From the IMG/VR virus record IMGVR_UViG_3300025131_000327, positions 1 through 27,524 of that record: a DNA stretch of 27,524 nt; one strand, written 5' to 3'. This DNA is from a virus. A program made the position numbers and the translations under genes. This document shows, piece after piece, positions 12,455 through 27,226 of the stretch. How positions within the stretch are numbered: the stretch's first letter is position 1; each line of letters opens with the position of its first letter. Under the pieces are notes generated by a model. The model saw only the letters and a program-made list of their open reading frames with translations, was not told the origin of the DNA and searched no databases.

Positions 12455-14284
12455 TCAACTACCTCCGTCTTCTCCATCAAGCCCTCTGATAATAACCAGA
12501 CCATACATGTCGGGTCGAACCATTTTCTTAGCGTATCGAGTCATCACACCCTTGCGAGGTACGAAGTCTTCAACACCAAAGATGGTGGGAGTAACTTGCA
12601 GTGGCACATAAGGTGCGTACACATAACCAGACTCAAGGAATGAAGAACCTTTACGGCCAACAAGAACAACGTTCCTGTGGAAGTAGGGATCTACATAAAC
12701 TTCGAATTTCTTCGAAAGAGTTCCAGTTTTGAGGGCGCCGATGGTACCTTTAGCGGTATCAGCAGTTACACTAGCTCGGAAACCAGCGGTGAATTCCAAA
12801 ACGTTAGCAACTTCGGGTGAACAAACTACAAAGTTTGCTCCGCCTCGAAGTACTTTTCTATGAATTTCAGCGGAAACATCGTTGATGCTTTCAACCAAAG
12901 TCTCATACCATTCTGAAACGGTACCGGTGAAGTCAGGAGCTTTTGTAGCAGCGCCAACTTCGGCTCCGGTTGTTCTGTTTAGGAACATTCCCGGGCTTCT
13001 TGACCAATAACGCGTAGCAGCAGTTGCTCCGTTCACGAGATCGTTGAGAAGTTCTCTGTCGATTTCGAGTGCAATTTGCTCAGACAGAATGCTGGTAAGT
13101 TCCACTTCTGCATCCAAGTTATGATAAGCGTTGAGGTCTTGACCCAATTCTGGAGACCACTTGGCTTTCAGTTTCTTGGTTTGAGCGGTAACAGCGATGC
13201 TGTCCACTTTGATGTCAATCTCTGGGATTACATCAACGCCGCGGCCGTTAAAAGACTGTGAAGTAGTGTCGCCCGCGCCTTCAAGTCCCCATGGATCCGC
13301 GCCAAGAACAGAGCCAACAGCTCCGCCGATGTTGAAGTTGTCTCTAGTTGGATAGGTTCCAGCCAAAGTACCACCAACAAGCTGTGTACTATTCACAAGG
13401 GCGTTGGTCTGGACTCCGCTAGCGACACCAAAATCAACTTGGGCTGAAGCGGATGTACCAAAGACAGTAAAAATGAGGTTGGTTGTTCCCGAACCGGAAT
13501 ATTGAGTCAAGCGACGAACCAAGCCATAGTTTGTTCCGGCACCAAGACCGGTTATACCGGTCGCCAGTTGGGCGCGGGTGAAGTTAAATGCCGTAAGGTT
13601 GTCAAAGTCACCTTCTGAAAAGAGTGACGCCGATGCTTGAAATTGCATAACACAATAAGCCGTGTCCGAGCCAGACAAAGCCAAGATATCTGGGTCATAT
13701 CTAATAGACTTTTTGTCAGCTTCAGTAAGAGCTGCTCCTCCGCCTACGTTGATCAAGAACTTGCGTACAAGTGCCGGTGTGGCGGAACTAATAGCTCCAC
13801 TAGGGCTAGAATACGCACCACCCATCAAATAGGGGCCGCCCCTACTAAGAGAAGCTGTGGTGATAATATCAACACCACCAGTAATTTCGCTAGCAACCTT
13901 GGATCCACCATAAATGGATTTATCAACAGTATTGCCAAATCTAGCGCTATTATATGTAAAATCTAGGAAGAAAATCAGTCCAGAGGGTAAGCTCATAGGC
14001 TGAACGCTAACAATATCGTTAGCAATTAATCCGCCGAATACACGTCGGACGATGGGGAAAGCAACAGAAGAGAATCCTTCTACGTCGCCGGCCGCCATGG
14101 AAGAAGCTTCTTTCAAAAGCTGCTTCGCTTGGTTTTCCAAGAGACGTGACATCCCTTGTCGTTTAAAATCGTTATCAAGGCCTTCGAGCAGACCGGTTTT
14201 TTCCCACTTATTCAGCAGGGCTTCCCCCTCTTGTCGAAGATCCCTATCAACGATGCCTTCTGTCAATGTTTTTAATACAGACAT
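12455..14284 (-). CDS. gp23: Major capsid protein gp23
   Basis: The protein has 609 residues (T4 gp23 has 521). The N-terminal 60 residues are helical and charged like a gp23 propeptide, and LLKE at residues 56-59 fits the (I/L)xE rule of the T4-type prohead protease, so the mature coat protein would start at Ala60. Then comes the hallmark DVEGFSSVAFPIVRRVFG with NDIVSVQPMSLPSGLIFFLD, and near the C-terminus RGGANFVVCSPEVANVLE, KFEVYVDPYF and the end MYGLVIIRGLDG. Between residues 140 and 330 lies a Gly/Ser/Thr-rich insertion, probably an exposed domain. An AAAAGGAG ribosome-binding site precedes the ATG. It directly follows the scaffold gene and is followed by a strong terminator, consistent with very high expression. 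Confidence 0.95.
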   Translation of the reverse strand: MSVLKTLTEGIVDRDLRQEGEALLNKWEKTGLLEGLDNDFKRQGMSRLLENQAKQLLKEASSMAAGDVEGFSSVAFPIVRRVFGGLIANDIVSVQPMSLPSGLIFFLDFTYNSARFGNTVDKSIYGGSKVASEITGGVDIITTASLSRGGPYLMGGAYSSPSGAISSATPALVRKFLINVGGGAALTEADKKSIRYDPDILALSGSDTAYCVMQFQASASLFSEGDFDNLTAFNFTRAQLATGITGLGAGTNYGLVRRLTQYSGSGTTNLIFTVFGTSASAQVDFGVASGVQTNALVNSTQLVGGTLAGTYPTRDNFNIGGAVGSVLGADPWGLEGAGDTTSQSFNGRGVDVIPEIDIKVDSIAVTAQTKKLKAKWSPELGQDLNAYHNLDAEVELTSILSEQIALEIDRELLNDLVNGATAATRYWSRSPGMFLNRTTGAEVGAATKAPDFTGTVSEWYETLVESINDVSAEIHRKVLRGGANFVVCSPEVANVLEFTAGFRASVTADTAKGTIGALKTGTLSKKFEVYVDPYFHRNVVLVGRKGSSFLESGYVYAPYVPLQVTPTIFGVEDFVPRKGVMTRYAKKMVRPDMYGLVIIRGLDGEDGGS

Positions 14285-14309: not shown

Positions 14310-15398
14310 TCACGACTTAATTCCGGCTAATTTCTGCCATCTAGAAGAAATAGCCTCTTCGATTGTGTCTCGTTCTCGTCGTCTTTTCGGAGACACAGTT
14401 AACAAGCTTCGTTTTTCAACTGCTTCACTTAGTGATTTTGGAGATCTTTTTCCGGATCCCCCCACCGTGTTTTGAAGTGTTTCAAAAATTGTTTTAGCCT
14501 GTTTAGGTGAATCAGCCCGTGATAATGCTTCGACAATATTTCCTTTTTGTCGCTCATTCAGAGAGGGATTAGATAAGACTTGATTCGTATAATATAATCT
14601 TGCGTTGGTTAGATTTGTCTCAACCAGCTTTGTTTTAAGTTGCTCAACTGTTGTTCCATATTTTTTATTTTTTGTTTCCATGACATTAATAATCTGGAGA
14701 GCTTGTTCCATTAATTTCTTTTGTTTATTGTTTTTATCTTCTAGCTCTTCAACTTTGTCTTTGATCGCATTCATTTCTTCGGCATATTCCCATTCCGCGC
14801 CTGTAAATGGCTGGAGGTGTCCGGTTGGAACAGTTCTGTAATCTACCTTAAGTTCTTCTTCAACTGCCTGTCGGATTTGGGATTCTGCAGCATATCTAGC
14901 TGTTTCCGGACTAGCTTCTTCTGCTTCGCCTTTTTCTTCTTCGTCAGAATCATCAAAGAAATCCATATCACCATCTTCCGTCAATTCAATTTCCTCATCT
15001 TCATCTTCGGTGAGGTCAATCTCGATCTCTTCGTCTAATTCCTCTTCCTTATCTTCCGAGACAAGAACCATGCTCTCTTCCTTGGGATTGAGTTCTCCGT
15101 AAATCTTTTCAATTTGCTCTTCAAGTTGTTCAAGATTAATTGTTATATCATTATCAGATTCTTCAACTGTTCTGTGCTTATAAGGAAATTGATCGTAGTT
15201 TTCTTCTTCCTCCACAACTTCTTCTTCACCTTCGGCTTCGTCTAGACCTAGATCAAGATCATCTTGTTCCAAAAGGCCATCGACGGCCGTTTTAACTTCT
15301 TCTGAATATTTTTCAATAATTGCTTGCTCTGCATTTTTCAGCGCGGCTTCTTTTAATGCCCCAGCATCAATAATTGCTTGTTCTAACATCGAAGACAT
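14310..15398 (-). CDS. gp22: Prohead core scaffolding protein gp22
   Basis: The protein has 362 residues. Residues about 45-175 are extremely acidic (long Glu/Asp runs); residues about 205-260 form a coiled coil rich in Lys/Glu/Gln; then comes a helical motif NARLYYTNQVLSNPSLNER with QKGNIVEALSRADSPKQAKT, and a basic tail ending RWQKLAGIKS. An acidic middle, coiled coil, basic C-terminus and position right before gp23 identify the T4 gp22-type scaffold, which forms the core inside the prohead and is later chopped up by gp21. Many (I/L)xE tripeptides (for example AIIE, LLE, LEE) are present as possible cleavage sites. A CTATTTAT motif and an AGGAG site lie upstream. Confidence 0.9.
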   Translation of the reverse strand: MSSMLEQAIIDAGALKEAALKNAEQAIIEKYSEEVKTAVDGLLEQDDLDLGLDEAEGEEEVVEEEENYDQFPYKHRTVEESDNDITINLEQLEEQIEKIYGELNPKEESMVLVSEDKEEELDEEIEIDLTEDEDEEIELTEDGDMDFFDDSDEEEKGEAEEASPETARYAAESQIRQAVEEELKVDYRTVPTGHLQPFTGAEWEYAEEMNAIKDKVEELEDKNNKQKKLMEQALQIINVMETKNKKYGTTVEQLKTKLVETNLTNARLYYTNQVLSNPSLNERQKGNIVEALSRADSPKQAKTIFETLQNTVGGSGKRSPKSLSEAVEKRSLLTVSPKRRRERDTIEEAISSRWQKLAGIKS

Positions 15399-16810: not shown

Positions 16811-17047
16811 TTAGTCTCTTTCACCGAGATGTTTTCTAACAGTTCTTTGTTCTCTTCTTTGTTCTCGCTGCAAAGCCCTTCTAGCTCTTTTTCTCTTTTC
16901 ACGTCTCTTAACAGAAGGTGGCCGATATGACATTCTATCTCTAACTTCTTCGATAATTCTTTCTTTTTTACACTTTTTTATGAACCTTCTGACCAGTCTC
17001 TCTGCAGATTCATTATTCCTTTGCGTCACAATAACATTTGTTGCCAT
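16811..17047 (-). CDS. rpsU: Phage-encoded ribosomal protein bS21
   Basis: The 78-residue protein aligns along nearly its full length with bacterial bS21 (71 residues in E. coli). NESAERLVRRFIKKCKKE corresponds to the E. coli segment NEPFDVALRRFKRSCEKA, RIIEEVRDRMSYRPPSVKRRE corresponds to the segment with LAEVRRREFYEKPTTERKR, and the rest is a strongly basic helix rich in Arg/Lys, as in bS21. bS21 sits on the 30S platform beside the anti-Shine-Dalgarno end of 16S rRNA and takes part in initiation. Phage copies are known from marine viruses and are thought to replace the host protein and favour phage mRNAs. It lies 9 bases after one prohead-type gene and 16 before a virion gene, with AGGAAG upstream of its ATG. 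A purely virion role for this basic protein cannot be excluded. Confidence 0.88.
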   Translation of the reverse strand: MATNVIVTQRNNESAERLVRRFIKKCKKERIIEEVRDRMSYRPPSVKRREKRKRARRALQREQRREQRTVRKHLGERD

Positions 17048-17056
17048 AATTGCTTC

Positions 17057-17446
17057 CTATAGTAATTTTCCCCAATTTTCCATACCGGGGATTGATGAGA
17101 TATCAACTCCCGCATCACTTGGATTTTGCCCCGATAACGGATTTTTGTTAGATCCTTCTGGGCCCAATGGAGTCGTATTTTCAAAAACATTAACTCCACC
17201 AAGTTTTTGGCTTCCGATTGAATCTAAAAGTCTTTTCCGCGCGTCAATATTATTTTTTTCGGACTTTTTCTCTCTTTGTTGATTTAAAAGTTTTGTTTGC
17301 TTTCTTTCCTGCAGGATGTTTGAGTTGGTTAATCCAATCGCAGTCTCTTGAACAATCTTTGAAAGCATTCCCTCTTCCAAGAGAACCTCCCGAATACATT
17401 CTTTAATCATCGGTTGGATGATTCTTTTTAATTCGCTGACTTTCAT
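17057..17446 (-). CDS. Small prohead-type protein with LKRIIQ targeting-like N-terminus (129 residues)
   Basis: The gene begins right after the prohead protease gene (1 base between stop and ATG). Its N-terminus, MKVSELKRIIQPMIKECI followed by REVLLEEGML, is an amphipathic helix that shares LKRII(Q), the following acidic IxE and the LxE-EG block with the repeated module in the genes at 24672-27226. The middle is basic and helical (KQTKLLNQQREKKSEKNN) and the C-terminus is a flexible glycine/proline segment ending GVDISSIPGMENWGKLL. The function is not known to me. Position between gp21 and gp22, with several (I/L)xE tripeptides, suggests a prohead core or internal protein processed by gp21. 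Confidence 0.8.
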   Translation of the reverse strand: MKVSELKRIIQPMIKECIREVLLEEGMLSKIVQETAIGLTNSNILQERKQTKLLNQQREKKSEKNNIDARKRLLDSIGSQKLGGVNVFENTTPLGPEGSNKNPLSGQNPSDAGVDISSIPGMENWGKLL

Positions 17447-17447
17447 T

Positions 17448-18047
17448 TTAGTCCCTTAAAATCTCGTCGATGAGGGAATTGATTTTTTCTTTTCCCTCTT
17501 TAATATGTTTTTTCTTTGCTTCTTGAAATAAGAAAGCACCTGATGTCGAAGGCTCTTGGACAATATCAAAACAAATAAGTTGAAAATCATCCTCCACCAA
17601 AGTTTGACCTTGACTTTCTCGGACTGAGCCCATGCCTCGAGAAGAAATTCCAATTTTTACACCACCTTCGACTAAAGCTCTAAGAGTTTGGCCAGCGGGC
17701 GTGTTTAAAACCTGAAGTTTGCCCTTCACGCTATCTCCATCCCACCAACAGGCTGTAAATTTGTGAGAAACATTCCTCAAATTTACTACAGAGTCATCTG
17801 GATGATCAAGCTCTCCAACGGCTCTCCCCTCTGTGATGACTTTGTTATATTTCTTTATCTCTCTTTCGAGAATTGGCCGAGAATAAACCCGCCCATTGCC
17901 GTTCTGTCTATCAGCGGCTTGAATAACGCCGGATAAAAATAGAGCATTATGCTCTGTGATCATCCTCTTTTCTTGTTCTGTGAGTAAATCTTCGCAAACA
18001 CCATTAGGGCAAAGCTCATAATACTCTCTTAAAACTTGTTTTGACAT
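17448..18047 (-). CDS. gp21: Prohead core protease gp21
   Basis: The protein has 199 residues, close to T4 gp21 (212). Recognisable parts are LFLSGVIQAADRQNGNGRVYSRPIL near residue 37, the catalytic-histidine segment GRAVGELDHPDDS near residue 96, and the catalytic-serine segment VKIGISSRGMGSV near residue 130, with VEDDFQLICFDIVQEPSTSGA closing the fold. These are the landmarks of the T4-type prohead serine protease, which matures the head by cutting after (I/L)xE in scaffold, coat and internal proteins and finally itself. It lies in the T4 order portal-...-protease-...-scaffold-coat. Its ATG has an AGGA site overlapping the end of the 29-codon mini-gene. Confidence 0.92.
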   Translation of the reverse strand: MSKQVLREYYELCPNGVCEDLLTEQEKRMITEHNALFLSGVIQAADRQNGNGRVYSRPILEREIKKYNKVITEGRAVGELDHPDDSVVNLRNVSHKFTACWWDGDSVKGKLQVLNTPAGQTLRALVEGGVKIGISSRGMGSVRESQGQTLVEDDFQLICFDIVQEPSTSGAFLFQEAKKKHIKEGKEKINSLIDEILRD

Positions 18048-23878: not shown

Positions 23879-24241
23879 TCATTTACTTTTTATTTCTGGT
23901 CGCCATCCTACGCTCCATCTCTCTTCTCGACCTTCTATCAACCTTATATAGCAATCAAAACAACAACCGAACTTAGAAAAATAAACATCGTTGTTTCTTT
24001 TTATTTTATTCTTCTCGCAGAAGTCGCAGTTTCTCACAACACTGCTCTTATTCTTAAGTAGTTTTTTATTTGATTCTCGACTTCTCAATTTTGCTTCTTT
24101 TTCTTTGAGTTGGTGGAGATATTCTTTTTCTTTTTCGGAATCCCATCCGGATTTAGGATTTTGGATAGCATCTTCTCCATATTTATCAGAGATTGCCTTT
24201 TCCATCTTTGCAACATAATTGGGATCTTTTTTTTTACTCAC
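23879..24241 (-). CDS. Small zinc-ribbon-like protein (120 residues)
   Basis: The best start is a GTG at 24241 that overlaps the previous stop (GTGA), giving VSKKKDPNYVAKMEKAIS; the earlier in-frame starts lie inside the upstream gene and would add an unlikely Trp/Cys-rich leader. The first half is a charged helix region with YGEDAIQNPKSGWDSEKE, followed by a coiled coil. The C-terminal part has CDFCEKNKIKRNN and, some 20 residues on, GCCFDCYIRLIEGREERW: CxxC pairs that should bind one zinc ion. The function is unknown; a small nucleic-acid-binding or protein-binding accessory is possible. It closes the small-gene cluster just before the packaging promoter. Confidence 0.78.
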   Translation of the reverse strand: MSKKKDPNYVAKMEKAISDKYGEDAIQNPKSGWDSEKEKEYLHQLKEKEAKLRSRESNKKLLKNKSSVVRNCDFCEKNKIKRNNDVYFSKFGCCFDCYIRLIEGREERWSVGWRPEIKSK

Positions 24242-24675
24242 TTTGTAACCTCTTTGATTGCAAATGCAATTCCAATTGTTGAGCCGACCCCGATGGCAAC
24301 CCCAATTGTGAACCAAAGAATTGTTAAATCTCTCTTTGGCTTAAAAACCATTTTCTGAAGTCTTGTGAGTTCTTCGTTCTTGAGTTTTATAATCTCGTCC
24401 GATCTTTTTTGTAAAGCTGACATATCAACCTTGAGAAGATTATACTTCATATCGTGCTGGATTTTAAGTTTTTCTTTTTGTTGGGAGAGTTTTAACTTGA
24501 GTTCATCTTTGAGCTTTTTTGTTTTTGCTAAGATTTCAGCGATTGCTTTGGCGTCTAGAAGTGTTCCGGGGAAAGGTGCTTTTTGATCTTTTTTGAGGGT
24601 TATTGATTTTCCTGCCGCGAATGCAGTTGTTTGAAAGATCATCAAAAAACATAGAATAAGCGGTAAGATTTTCAT
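24238..24675 (-). CDS. Secreted coiled-coil protein with C-terminal membrane anchor (145 residues)
   Basis: The ATG at 24675 overlaps the preceding stop (ATGA) and opens a textbook signal peptide, MKILPLILCFLMIFQTTAFA followed by AGKS, with a signal peptidase I site (AFA-A). I see no lipobox. Residues 25-108 are a long, highly charged coiled coil (KTKKLKDELKLKLSQQKEKL and following). A C-terminal membrane helix (TILWFTIGVAIGVGSTIGIAFA) ends in a short basic tail. The predicted topology is a periplasmic coiled coil held in the inner membrane by its C-terminus, inverse to ordinary i-spanins. A role in lysis or at the envelope is possible; no family is recognised. An in-frame upstream ATG (24717) would bury the signal peptide. 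Confidence 0.78.
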   Translation of the reverse strand: MKILPLILCFLMIFQTTAFAAGKSITLKKDQKAPFPGTLLDAKAIAEILAKTKKLKDELKLKLSQQKEKLKIQHDMKYNLLKVDMSALQKRSDEIIKLKNEELTRLQKMVFKPKRDLTILWFTIGVAIGVGSTIGIAFAIKEVTK

Positions 24676-25148
24676 TTCAAATCTGATTTCAATGCGTTCA
24701 CAGATTCCGTAGCCCACATTATCGGACCGCTCAAGTCCGATAGGTCGGGCTTATCCAACGTGCCTTCTTCATCATATTTTTCTTGATATTCCTCTAATCT
24801 TCTTGCTATCTTGCGTAATGCCCAATAAATTTCATCAAGAGATCGTGGGGAGAGATTTTCACCACTGTTTATAGTAGCCAGATTATTACTAAGGACATCG
24901 GAAGGACCTAGAATTTCATATGCACGGTCGAAATCATATTCGTCTTCAGGGTTAATATCTTTATTAAGCTCTTCCACCACATTCTCAAGCTCTGTGTGTA
25001 ACTTTTTAATCTTTTCTGGATCGTGATCATGGTACCCCATAAATTTTTTGATCTTTTTCCCTGCACTTTTAAAAAACCCCTCCTCAGACAAGGTATTTTC
25101 AATCTCTTCTTGGATAATTCGCTTTAGTTGTTTTTTTGTAATCTTCAT
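24672..25148 (-). CDS. Small protein with MKITKKQLKRIIQEEI N-terminal module (158 residues)
   Basis: The first 24 residues are the shared module, ending LSEEG, and contain two possible prohead-protease sites (IQE at 12-14, LSE at 20-22). The next part, FFKSAGKKIKKFMGY, is a basic amphipathic helix. The remainder is charged and helical (KIKKLHTELENVVEELNKD, then SLDEIYWALRKIARRLEEY). The same length and layout appear in the second half of the neighbouring 403-residue protein (residues 248-403), so the two are probably paralogues or carry the same module on similar helical bodies. Its stop overlaps the next gene's start. I infer a virion-internal protein delivered into the prohead; the biochemical function is unknown. 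Confidence 0.82.
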   Translation of the reverse strand: MKITKKQLKRIIQEEIENTLSEEGFFKSAGKKIKKFMGYHDHDPEKIKKLHTELENVVEELNKDINPEDEYDFDRAYEILGPSDVLSNNLATINSGENLSPRSLDEIYWALRKIARRLEEYQEKYDEEGTLDKPDLSDLSGPIMWATESVNALKSDLK

Positions 25149-25159
25149 TTTTCTTATCC

Positions 25160-26371
25160 CTATCTTAGCGCTAGGGCTATTTCCCTTCGGATGGCTTCTT
25201 CGAGTTCTTCACGAGGGCTTTCAAATAGTTTCAATAATTTATGAACAGCCCACTTAGCGGGGTCTATTTTAAAAACCAGTTCTTGTAAAGGATCGGTAAA
25301 ATTCCAATTGACAACATTGCCGGCAGCTTCATCCACTTTCTTTTCAAATCCGCGCAGGTCATCTGCTACATCTTTGGCATAGGCTTCAATTTCTTCGGAT
25401 GACTGAAACTCCGGAAGAGGCTGTATTCTGTGGCCATTGCGGTCCGGCTTAAAGGAGGCTGGAATTTCAAACTTTTTTTGAAAGCCATGTTCCGCTATAA
25501 ACATGGCAAGGTTAGAAAGTTCTGTTTCTAACTTTTCCAATATTTGGTCGGCGCCTCCGCCTTCTTCACCTAGAGCCCTTCCAATCTCTTCTTGGATGAT
25601 TCGCTTTAGTTGTTTTTTGGTAATTTTCCTTTCTCTTATTCCTTTAGGTATACCAAGACGTGGCCACTTTTCTCCTGTCTTGCGCAGTTCGGGCTCCTTG
25701 GAAAGATCTAGGCTCTTGCCCGGCAGCTGCCTCGGATCTCCGTGTTTACTCTTATATTGTTGCAACATAAGGTCGGAATGCCCGTACCCGGGGAGCTCCC
25801 CCTCATAGGGGCCGTCACGCTTGACAGCGCGGCGATCATTCCAACCTTCGTCGGCGAATTTTTCAAGATCTTCATATTGTTCGATTGTTAGATTCCCAGC
25901 CTCATAATCCTCTAGAAATTTATCCGACCATTTGCGGTGATAGCTATCCCAGCTTGTTTCAGCCTCCGGTTCTGACTCTGTCCCTGACCGAAGACTCGTT
26001 CTCTCTGGTCCGCGACGTTGGTGCGACTTGTGGGTTGCTACATTAAAACCAAGTTCTGCAAAAAGATTTGCAAAAACAGCAAAGATAATTTCACCAAAGT
26101 CTTCATTCAAGAGCGTTGATTGCTCTCCGAGCGGCTGTTCTTCTCCCATTTCCGCTGTTTTTTTCTTTACCATAGCATCTGCTTCTTCGAAGCTAATACC
26201 AAGCACGTCTGCAAGTTTTTGCGTTTCATTTCTAATATCTTCTGGATCCGGATCTGCAGGGTTGTCGGCTCCTTCAAAAGGCACATAGTGCCCTTTCATC
26301 CCTCCTTCGAACATGGCCCTTCCAATCTCTTCTTGAATAATTCGCTTAAGCTGCTTTTTGGTAATCTTCAT
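25160..26371 (-). CDS. Fused two-module protein with two MKITKK-type modules (403 residues)
   Basis: I start at the ATG at 26371, preceded by AAGGAATAAAAGA; a TTG at 26392 would overlap the previous gene. The first module (residues 1-24) is followed by an acidic region, a CUE/UBA-like-looking helix pair (IRNETQKLADVLGISFEEAD, weak), a hydrophobic FGEIIFAVFANLFAELGF segment, and a hydrophilic stretch rich in Tyr/Asp/Gly/His. At residue 249 a second near-identical copy begins (KITKKQLKRIIQEEIGRALGEE), followed by a helical domain of about 135 residues. The DNA just before the second copy still looks like a ribosome-binding site, with AGG where other copies have ATG. It therefore looks like a fusion of two genes. 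The function is unknown; probably internal virion protein(s). Confidence 0.8.
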   Translation of the reverse strand: MKITKKQLKRIIQEEIGRAMFEGGMKGHYVPFEGADNPADPDPEDIRNETQKLADVLGISFEEADAMVKKKTAEMGEEQPLGEQSTLLNEDFGEIIFAVFANLFAELGFNVATHKSHQRRGPERTSLRSGTESEPEAETSWDSYHRKWSDKFLEDYEAGNLTIEQYEDLEKFADEGWNDRRAVKRDGPYEGELPGYGHSDLMLQQYKSKHGDPRQLPGKSLDLSKEPELRKTGEKWPRLGIPKGIRERKITKKQLKRIIQEEIGRALGEEGGGADQILEKLETELSNLAMFIAEHGFQKKFEIPASFKPDRNGHRIQPLPEFQSSEEIEAYAKDVADDLRGFEKKVDEAAGNVVNWNFTDPLQELVFKIDPAKWAVHKLLKLFESPREELEEAIRREIALALR

Positions 26372-26388
26372 TCTTTTATTCCTTCTAA

Positions 26389-26898
26389 TCAATTATTTGT
26401 AAATATATGAAACAGCATATACCCGGCAGATCCCAATAACAAGATACTCCCTAGTGCCGCTGCTGTAGTGGCGGCTGCTCCTAGACCTAATGCGCCAAGT
26501 TGTCCAGCGGCTCCCATATATCCCATTGCGCCGGCGAAACCTACGGCTGGATGCCATCCTTTTGTCTTATCTTGGCTCGGATAATTTGATTGATAATCTG
26601 GATCATCCAGTTTTTGAGAATGTGATCTTCTCATTTTTCCGAGTTTTCCTGCCGCTGTGGGAGTAAAAACTTCTTCCAAAGCACCTTTTTCCGTTGCTTG
26701 CTTCTTTAGAAAATCTACAACCTTATCTTTCTGATCTTGCGGTAAAGAAAACATAATTTCTGAAAATCGTTTTGCTACTTCTTCTTCGTCATTCGTATCA
26801 GCAAATTTTTGAGCCTCTTCTGCGGCTTTTTCAACTTCTGCCTGCTTTTCAAGCTCTTCTTTAATAATTCTTTTTAAGGTTTCTTTTGTAATTTTCAT
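26389..26898 (-). CDS. Protein with targeting-like N-terminus and hydrophobic Gly/Ala-rich C-terminus (169 residues)
   Basis: It begins MKITKETLKRIIKEELEKQA, the module in variant form (IKE at residues 12-14 as possible cleavage site), then a charged helical region (VEKAAEEAQKFADTNDEEEV and FSEIMFSLPQDQKDKVVDFL), a linker, and from about residue 117 a Gly/Ala-rich hydrophobic tail (AVGFAGAMGYMGAAGQLGAL and then a clear membrane helix before FHIFTNN). Such a tail could insert into a membrane. If the N-terminal module carries the protein into the head, it could be an ejected protein that acts at the host membrane on infection. I do not recognise a family. The stop is 17 bases before the next ATG. 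Confidence 0.8.
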   Translation of the reverse strand: MKITKETLKRIIKEELEKQAEVEKAAEEAQKFADTNDEEEVAKRFSEIMFSLPQDQKDKVVDFLKKQATEKGALEEVFTPTAAGKLGKMRRSHSQKLDDPDYQSNYPSQDKTKGWHPAVGFAGAMGYMGAAGQLGALGLGAAATTAAALGSILLLGSAGYMLFHIFTNN

Positions 26899-26914
26899 TT
26901 ATTTGATCCTCTTT

Positions 26915-27226
26915 TTAGCATGCTCGACCATAGTCTTGTTCATGAAAATCAAGAGCCCTTTGTGCTCCTTTTTCGTCCATTCCATGAACTTTCATTAAAG
27001 CTTGTATGATTACTTCGCAAGGTTCTCCTCCATGGTCGGAAATCGTTTGCTCAACCGTTGTTTTTTCACGCACATACGGATCCTGTGGAGCAGGAGGGGG
27101 CGGTTCTTGGAACCTAGAAGCGACCGGTCCTCTTCCAGCTTCCCATCGAGTAGGATCGGATTCTTTGATCATTTTTTCAATCTCTTCTTTAATAATCTTG
27201 CTCAACAGCTTTTTTGTAATCTTCAT
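26915..27226 (-). CDS. Small protein with MKITKKLLSKIIKEEI N-terminal module (103 residues)
   Basis: The ATG at 27226 sits four bases after the previous stop, and the shared AAGGAATAAAAGA ribosome-binding segment overlaps that stop. The N-terminal module has IKE at residues 12-14. Residues 25-55 are proline-rich and flexible (FQEPPPPAPQDPYV). The C-terminal 45 residues look like a small helical domain (EVIIQALMKVHGMDEKGAQR, then ALDFHEQDYGRAC) with two cysteines. No family is recognised. It belongs to the run of module-bearing genes and is probably a virion-internal protein, but this rests only on the shared N-terminus. Confidence 0.78.
   Translation of the reverse strand: MKITKKLLSKIIKEEIEKMIKESDPTRWEAGRGPVASRFQEPPPPAPQDPYVREKTTVEQTISDHGGEPCEVIIQALMKVHGMDEKGAQRALDFHEQDYGRAC

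Follow-up and report, generated by a model that had tools for sequence, protein, structure and literature searches.

Introduction

The internal proteins Ip1-3 of phage T4 have only their leader in common and inhibit type IV restriction enzymes (PMC12373910). In the IPIII leader, MKTYQEFIAE, residues 4 and 7 serve targeting and residues 8 and 10 processing (PMC9026906). T4 also packages the ADP-ribosyltransferase Alt, which is cleaved at both ends (PMC9026906), and among the propeptides of SPN3US and phiKZ two are short, with 20 and 24 residues, and most have 111–254 residues (PMC10052503). Here, an N-terminal module designated tag A was analyzed in a 27,524-nucleotide stretch of DNA from an uncultured bacterial virus (IMG/VR record IMGVR_UViG_3300025131_000327, positions 1 to 27,524; hereafter, the window) and in related phages. 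The module is very probably an N-terminal capsid-targeting sequence (CTS), the tagged proteins being loaded into the head, cut by a gp21-type protease and carried in the virion. No account of the tag, or of a marine capsid-targeting code, was found in the searchable open-access literature.

Tag Copies in the Window

Tag A, MKITKxQLKxII(K/Q)EE, occurs in five copies across four neighboring genes, all on the minus strand, and the gene starts share the pattern MKITK(K/E)xLxxII(K/Q)EE(I/L). The count given by an earlier note made from the letters of the window was thus recovered, with four copies at an ATG (27226, 26898, 26371, and 25148) and one internal copy. Tagged protein 1 (26915..27226, 103 residues) begins with MKITKKLLSKIIKEEIEKMIKE followed by S (tag at 27161-27226) and contains (I/L)xE twice, as IKE at residues 12-14 and as IKE at residues 20-22, the latter with S next. 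Tagged protein 2 (26389..26898, 169 residues) carries MKITKETLKRIIKE followed by E and has a hydrophobic, Gly/Ala-rich C-terminus, with a helix at 141-167 in a low-confidence predicted model. Tagged protein 3 (25160..26371, 403 residues) carries MKITKKQLKRIIQEEIGRAMFE followed by G at its N-terminus and includes the internal copy, RKITKKQLKRIIQEEIGRALGE followed by EG (25565..25630). Tagged protein 4 (24672..25148, 158 residues) begins with MKITKKQLKRIIQEEIENTLSE followed by EG and was the top match of the tag profile in the window (E=3.5e-13).

The first codon of the internal copy is AGG (25630-25628) where ATG would be expected, and the same AGG is found in a near-identical independent contig, IMGVR_UViG_3300025141_015523. 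Just ahead of this copy lies AAAGGAATAAGAGA, which resembles the AAGGAATAAAAGA ahead of the starts at 27226 and 26371. Together with the copy, it resembles the remains of a ribosome site, stop and start, and the gene at 25160-26371 therefore probably arose when two tagged genes fused. Eight more double-tagged proteins were found among 481 tagged proteins.

The bodies behind the tags are otherwise dissimilar, as had been described: among all of the collected loci they matched only themselves (E<=0.01), homologues were found solely in a near-identical contig, and no known family was detected in PHROG and Pfam searches. AlphaFold models of the tagged proteins were poor (mean predicted local distance difference test scores of 51 and 57), too low for a fold search, with a helix at residues 5-20 of the tag. 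The amphipathic character ascribed to this helix in the earlier note was not significant, since the hydrophobic moments of the tags were equalled by 9–76% of the shuffled sequences.

Distribution of Tag A and Its Position at the Start Codon

Two sets of loci were compared: 80 loci (0.98 Mb) picked by their S77 prohead protease alone, blind to the tag, and 80 marine podovirus loci (0.71 Mb) as a control. Of the 51 tag matches in the S77 set, 45 coincided with a start codon, and the control contained no copies, a difference that excludes chance. In six large contigs, 105 of the 109 matches were also at a start codon. The N-terminal position was not kept by the internal copy of the window, in other proteins with two tags and by a few copies at the C-terminus. 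Tag-like sequence at the extreme C-terminus was seen in loci L033 (about 11327), L038 (about 4490) and L097 (about 5442), for example as GKITKAKLKQIIKQELSEIVK-stop. Many of the 486 unique tagged proteins collected came from loci retrieved with a pattern that requires a start codon, and the statement on N-terminal position is therefore based on the S77 loci and the six large contigs.

With a degenerate pattern, at least 120 IMG/VR stretches were matched, whereas GTDB contigs totalling 257 Gb gave only seven, spread over four metagenome bins. An S77 protease is encoded in two of these bins, and a gp23-type capsid gene is present as well on one tagged contig, so at least those tagged contigs are phage contigs binned with bacteria. 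The tagged contigs (L205-L211) all appear to derive from phages; the metagenome-assembled genomes in which they are binned bear the names Peribacter, Halobacteriovorax, Methylococcaceae TMED69 and Gemmatimonadetes, and one of the contigs, of 306 kb, carries both gp23 and S77. Two expectations of the earlier note were borne out in this way: the module profile matches almost exclusively N-termini, in phages with a gp21-type protease and in none of the control phages, and the module is not common in cellular genomes.

The richest records, of 185–293 kb, hold 41, 32, 29, 28, 28, and 24 copies, and in jumbo phages the number thus rises to 41 per record. Tandem arrays are common, with 208 of 321 successive tagged pairs lying within about 60 nt of each other. 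Tag A was not found in lambda, phiKZ, SPO1, T4, KVP40, S-PM2, Cr30, RM378, P-SSM2, HTVC008M, R11Z, RaK2 or GAP32. A short tblastn search with the tag against cultured phages gave one weak match only, which led to the distant uncultured phage LR756508.1 (484 kb), where variant tags are arrayed around the S77 gene. An intein bearing a LAGLIDADG domain splits this prohead protease gene (L287:5481-7202). Several LR756508.1 proteins (L288, L289, and L290), some of them with a YRG motif, start with what may be a third leader, M(K/R)FKxLL(F/K)E; the assignment of these YRG proteins as ADP-ribosyltransferases was not confirmed by Pfam.

Co-occurrence With the gp21-Type Protease

The window encodes a gp21-type prohead protease of the Peptidase_S77 family (17448..18047, minus strand; PHROG 207, E=7e-55; Pfam PF03420, E=6e-28). 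An S77 protease was present in all seven tagged records longer than 150 kb and in 26 of the 40 tagged records overall, and it was also found in the tagged LR756508.1 and in two tagged metagenome-assembled genomes. The gp23 gene is missing from all 14 tagged records without S77 and the terminase from 13 of them; in the remaining one, the terminase sits at the contig edge. Since head genes are missing, these records look like fragments lacking the head block, and their candidacy as counter-examples was rejected on the basis of this gp23 and terminase search.

Residue Spacing, a Second Tag and Exchange of Leaders

Residues L8, I11, I12, and E14 are among the most conserved columns of the tag and occur together in 96% of 481 tags. 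Their spacing (i, i+3, i+4, i+6) is that of Y4, F7, I8, and E10 in the T4 leader, and I12-x-E14 forms the (I/L)xE motif of gp21, nearly invariant in the tags. The same spacing is seen in T4 gp24 (MAKINELLRE, then S) and in a second N-terminal leader, tag B, of the MKLLMENWRKFLNE type, with W8, F/Y11, L12, and E14. Tag B occurs in the same phages on many unrelated proteins (for example, L151:7325-7696, L254:5732-6295, L236:7302-7832, and L175:2947-3324). A generic scan for this frame recovered the leaders already described in T4, on the internal proteins and on gp24, and gave background level in RaK2 and HTVC008M. The spacing shared with T4 would represent convergence or very deep divergence, because neither the tag A nor the tag B profile matched in T4.

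The bodies of tag A and tag B proteins were then compared after removal of the leaders. The tag A protein L191:960-1382 and the tag B protein L175:2947-3324 share 67% identity over 109 residues (E=1.7e-43), and the tag A protein L045:704-1729 and a counterpart from L041, which carries tag B, are both gp21-adjacent and share 36% identity over 270 residues (E=5e-50). One small body family, of six sequences with three different leaders in all, stands behind VKITKLQLRRIIAE, MKLLLENWRKYMKE, MKKLLTEWRKYLSE, and MKHLREYIRQILLE. Every leader in it has 14 residues and the homology starts exactly after the Glu (E14), and in the body family of L038, L163, and L154 the homology starts after a second LxE. 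Judging from these alignments, the leaders are interchangeable on homologous bodies.

These results bear on the idea that the tag is a neutral recombination hot spot, in which duplicated gene starts (ribosome site and first codons) capture new genes and the peptide itself has no function. The tandem arrays with short gaps and the fused genes would fit such a process. However, the synonymous codons of the tag vary freely across the tagged proteins, those of the window included, and the residues stay constant, which points to selection on the peptide; in addition, unrelated leaders of equal residue spacing replace each other on homologous bodies. A purely neutral origin is therefore very unlikely, although a role in recombination could coexist with one in targeting.

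Two Predicted Cut Sites and Their Trade-Off

In 55% of the tags a second (L/I)xE places its Glu at residues 18-24, against 5–8% further along the proteins, and the count of 218 exceeds the 124 ± 7 of column shuffles. Its presence varies with residue 15: the second site occurs in 240 of 385 tags with E15, in 10 of 57 with any other residue there (p=1.3e-10; odds ratio 7.8) and in only 1 of 28 with Ala. The association between E15 and the second site was also found within genomes (Mantel-Haenszel odds ratio 13, permutation p=5e-5) and held when one protein per body cluster was taken, the large cluster excepted (p=4e-7).

The tag might instead be an uncut docking helix that recruits proteins to another phage assembly, such as a replication or transcription complex, the tail or an intracellular compartment. 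This would account for a short helix at the front of many unrelated proteins, and the low-confidence models do place a helix there. By contrast, E14 is conserved in 98% of the tags while K13 and residue 10 vary, as expected for the P1 residue of a protease, and an uncut helix predicts neither the site trade-off nor a leader exchange exactly at the E14 boundary. The tag also co-occurs with S77 and adjoins gp21. Taken together, these observations make a docking helix quite improbable.

Head-Gene Block and Other Genes of the Window

The window holds a T4-type head block on the minus strand, comprising the S77 protease, a gp23-type capsid protein and a terminase. The major capsid protein (12455..14284; PF07068, E=8e-73) has a predicted propeptide of residues 1-59 (codons 14108-14284), which ends in LLKE and is followed by ASSM. 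This LL(K/R)E is kept in 29 relatives and is the same kind of site as in the tags. The protein at 14310..15398, in the gp22 position before gp23, gave no confident family match in the PHROG and Pfam searches; from its position and its acidic coiled-coil composition, it is a probable prohead core or scaffold protein and the likely docking partner of the tags.

Directly after gp21, the protein at 17057..17446 begins with MKVSELKRIIQPMIKECIREVLLEEG. The earlier note had counted it as a sixth, related copy with (I/L)xE at residues 12-14. Its leader is indeed related to tag A but distinct: the first site reads IQP, so that the motif is present at this place in the five copies proper and not in this one, and the protein is a member of a separate conserved gp21-adjacent family with the consensus MKKxELKKxLKPLIKECIKEVLFEEG. 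When 80 distinct genes downstream of gp21 were compared, tag A or tag B proteins were found in this slot in relatives, and in many of them the gene directly after gp21 has tag A or another leader at its N-terminus. In many relatives (L051, L046, L064, L112, and others), the large gp21-adjacent protein has a longer conserved leader, MSxWSSFExxxLIMENWRxFLxE.

Two further genes, both on the minus strand, lie near those described above. Between gp21 and gp23, at 16811-17047, there is a phage-encoded homologue of ribosomal protein bS21 (PF01165, E=2.1e-9), and in Microcystis phage Mel-JY01 a bS21 homologue is likewise placed between these two genes. The protein at 24238-24675 has a signal-like N-terminal segment, a hydrophobic C-terminal segment and no Pfam match, and is possibly a spanin-like lysis protein.

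Tagged Bodies and Their Probable Role as Cargo

Clustering of the 446 bodies obtained from the 486 unique tagged proteins gave 314 clusters, of which 253 had a single member. Matches to known families were rare, and 136 diverse tag A proteins gave one each of L,D-transpeptidase, GNAT acetyltransferase, ParB-like nuclease and FliG_C. Among tag B proteins, an ART-PolyVal ADP-ribosyltransferase (E=6.6e-8, in a related contig), a NUDIX hydrolase, a GNAT acetyltransferase, a zeta-toxin-like kinase and, as a weak match, HNH were detected. The tagged bodies are probably diverse accessory proteins acting as host-takeover or counter-defence effectors; for the four proteins of the window, such a role is proposed tentatively.

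Another explanation is that the tag brings proteins into the prohead merely as parts of the scaffold or core, to be degraded and expelled and never delivered to the host. The slot beside gp21, which in T4 is occupied by genes of core proteins, is where several tagged proteins have their genes. It also counts for this explanation that the T4 core proteins are cut to fragments and mostly removed (PMC9026906). The 314 unrelated body clusters and the enzyme-like cargo of tag B (ART, NUDIX, GNAT, and Zeta_toxin) suit effectors better, and a scaffold role is accordingly considered unlikely.

Discussion

The evidence for the function of the tag is comparative and consists of its position, spread, co-occurrence with the protease, residue spacing, exchange between leaders and the site trade-off. 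The capsid-targeting interpretation put forward in the earlier note draws support from the profile searches, the T4-like spacing, the swapped tags and the trade-off. In the mechanism proposed, the leader (residues about 1–14, with L8 and I11 as a docking face) would bind the prohead core during head assembly and, as in T4, this binding would pull each tagged protein into the prohead. The S77 protease (17448-18047) would then cut after (I/L)xE, as suggested by the conserved sites, the trade-off and the leader boundaries. With a small residue at position 15 (A/S/T), the cut is predicted after E14, and with Glu at 15, after the second (I/L)xE near residue 22. In KRIIQEEIENTLSEEGFF it would fall after LSE, and in the IIREAIILN leader after IRE. 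The body would be freed inside the head, carried in the virion and, by analogy, probably ejected with the DNA. In the fused 403-residue gene product, the internal tag would add a second cut and give two products.

Several points weigh against this interpretation. None of the records reached is a tagged phage with virion proteomics, so packaging and cleavage stand as predictions, and few of the tagged bodies could be assigned a function. Neither T4 nor KVP40, S-PM2, P-SSM2, HTVC008M, Cr30 or RM378 contains a sequence that matches tag A. The site trade-off was first noticed in one family and only later tested on all of the tags, and it could partly come from subfamilies with short and long leaders. 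Finally, tagged protein 2 (26898) has no second (I/L)xE, and its sole site, IKE followed by E, is of the disfavoured kind.

If capsid targeting is correct, the first 14 residues would be enough to read hundreds of "hypothetical proteins" of environmental phages as packaged, and probably injected, and the count of proteins pre-loaded in a phage would go from the three T4 internal proteins to dozens. Injected effectors and counter-defence proteins could then be recognized by a simple test on the genome in phages that have never been grown, and T4-type heads would gain an exchangeable loading tag. The rule that residue 15 sets the site used becomes directly testable with peptides. On a wider scale, there is a reasonable case that an uncultured, mostly marine T4-related lineage, with many jumbo phages, uses an open, modular cargo-loading code of several interchangeable leaders, one spacing and one protease, and that up to about 40 fast-turnover proteins in each phage, enzyme-like effectors and fused polyproteins cleaved in the head among them, form an arsenal delivered with the DNA.

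Regarding known systems, the ejection proteins of the giant phages SPN3US and phiKZ are likewise many internal proteins whose propeptides are cleaved by the prohead protease (PMC10052503). The phiKZ genome gave no tag A, tag B or S77 match and the window has S77, which sets it apart from the phiKZ-type propeptide class. Alt of T4, an ADP-ribosyltransferase carried in the virion, has an N-terminal propeptide of 7 residues that is cut by gp21. The likeness lies in the ART-PolyVal domain on a tag B protein; the Alt propeptide differs in sequence from the tag, and no Alt homologue was found in the window. The closest system is the T4 CTS of IPI, IPII, and IPIII (MKTYQEFIAE, then A), also an N-terminal leader common to unrelated proteins (PMC9026906, PMC12373910, PMC3012670). 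Both systems combine the hydrophobic-x-x-hydrophobic-(I/L)-x-E spacing and a gp21 site with a gp21-type protease, a gp23-type capsid and variable accessory cargo. The tag differs from the T4 CTS in lacking sequence homology to it, in its greater length (14–22 residues), in its frequent second site and in its copy number of up to 41 per record compared with three T4 internal proteins; its leader classes can be exchanged, and some genes are fused and carry two tags. The tag is therefore judged, from its sequence features, to work like the T4 CTS and not to be its homologue in sequence, and the system most likely represents the T4 principle on a far larger scale, in this uncultured virus and dozens of its relatives.

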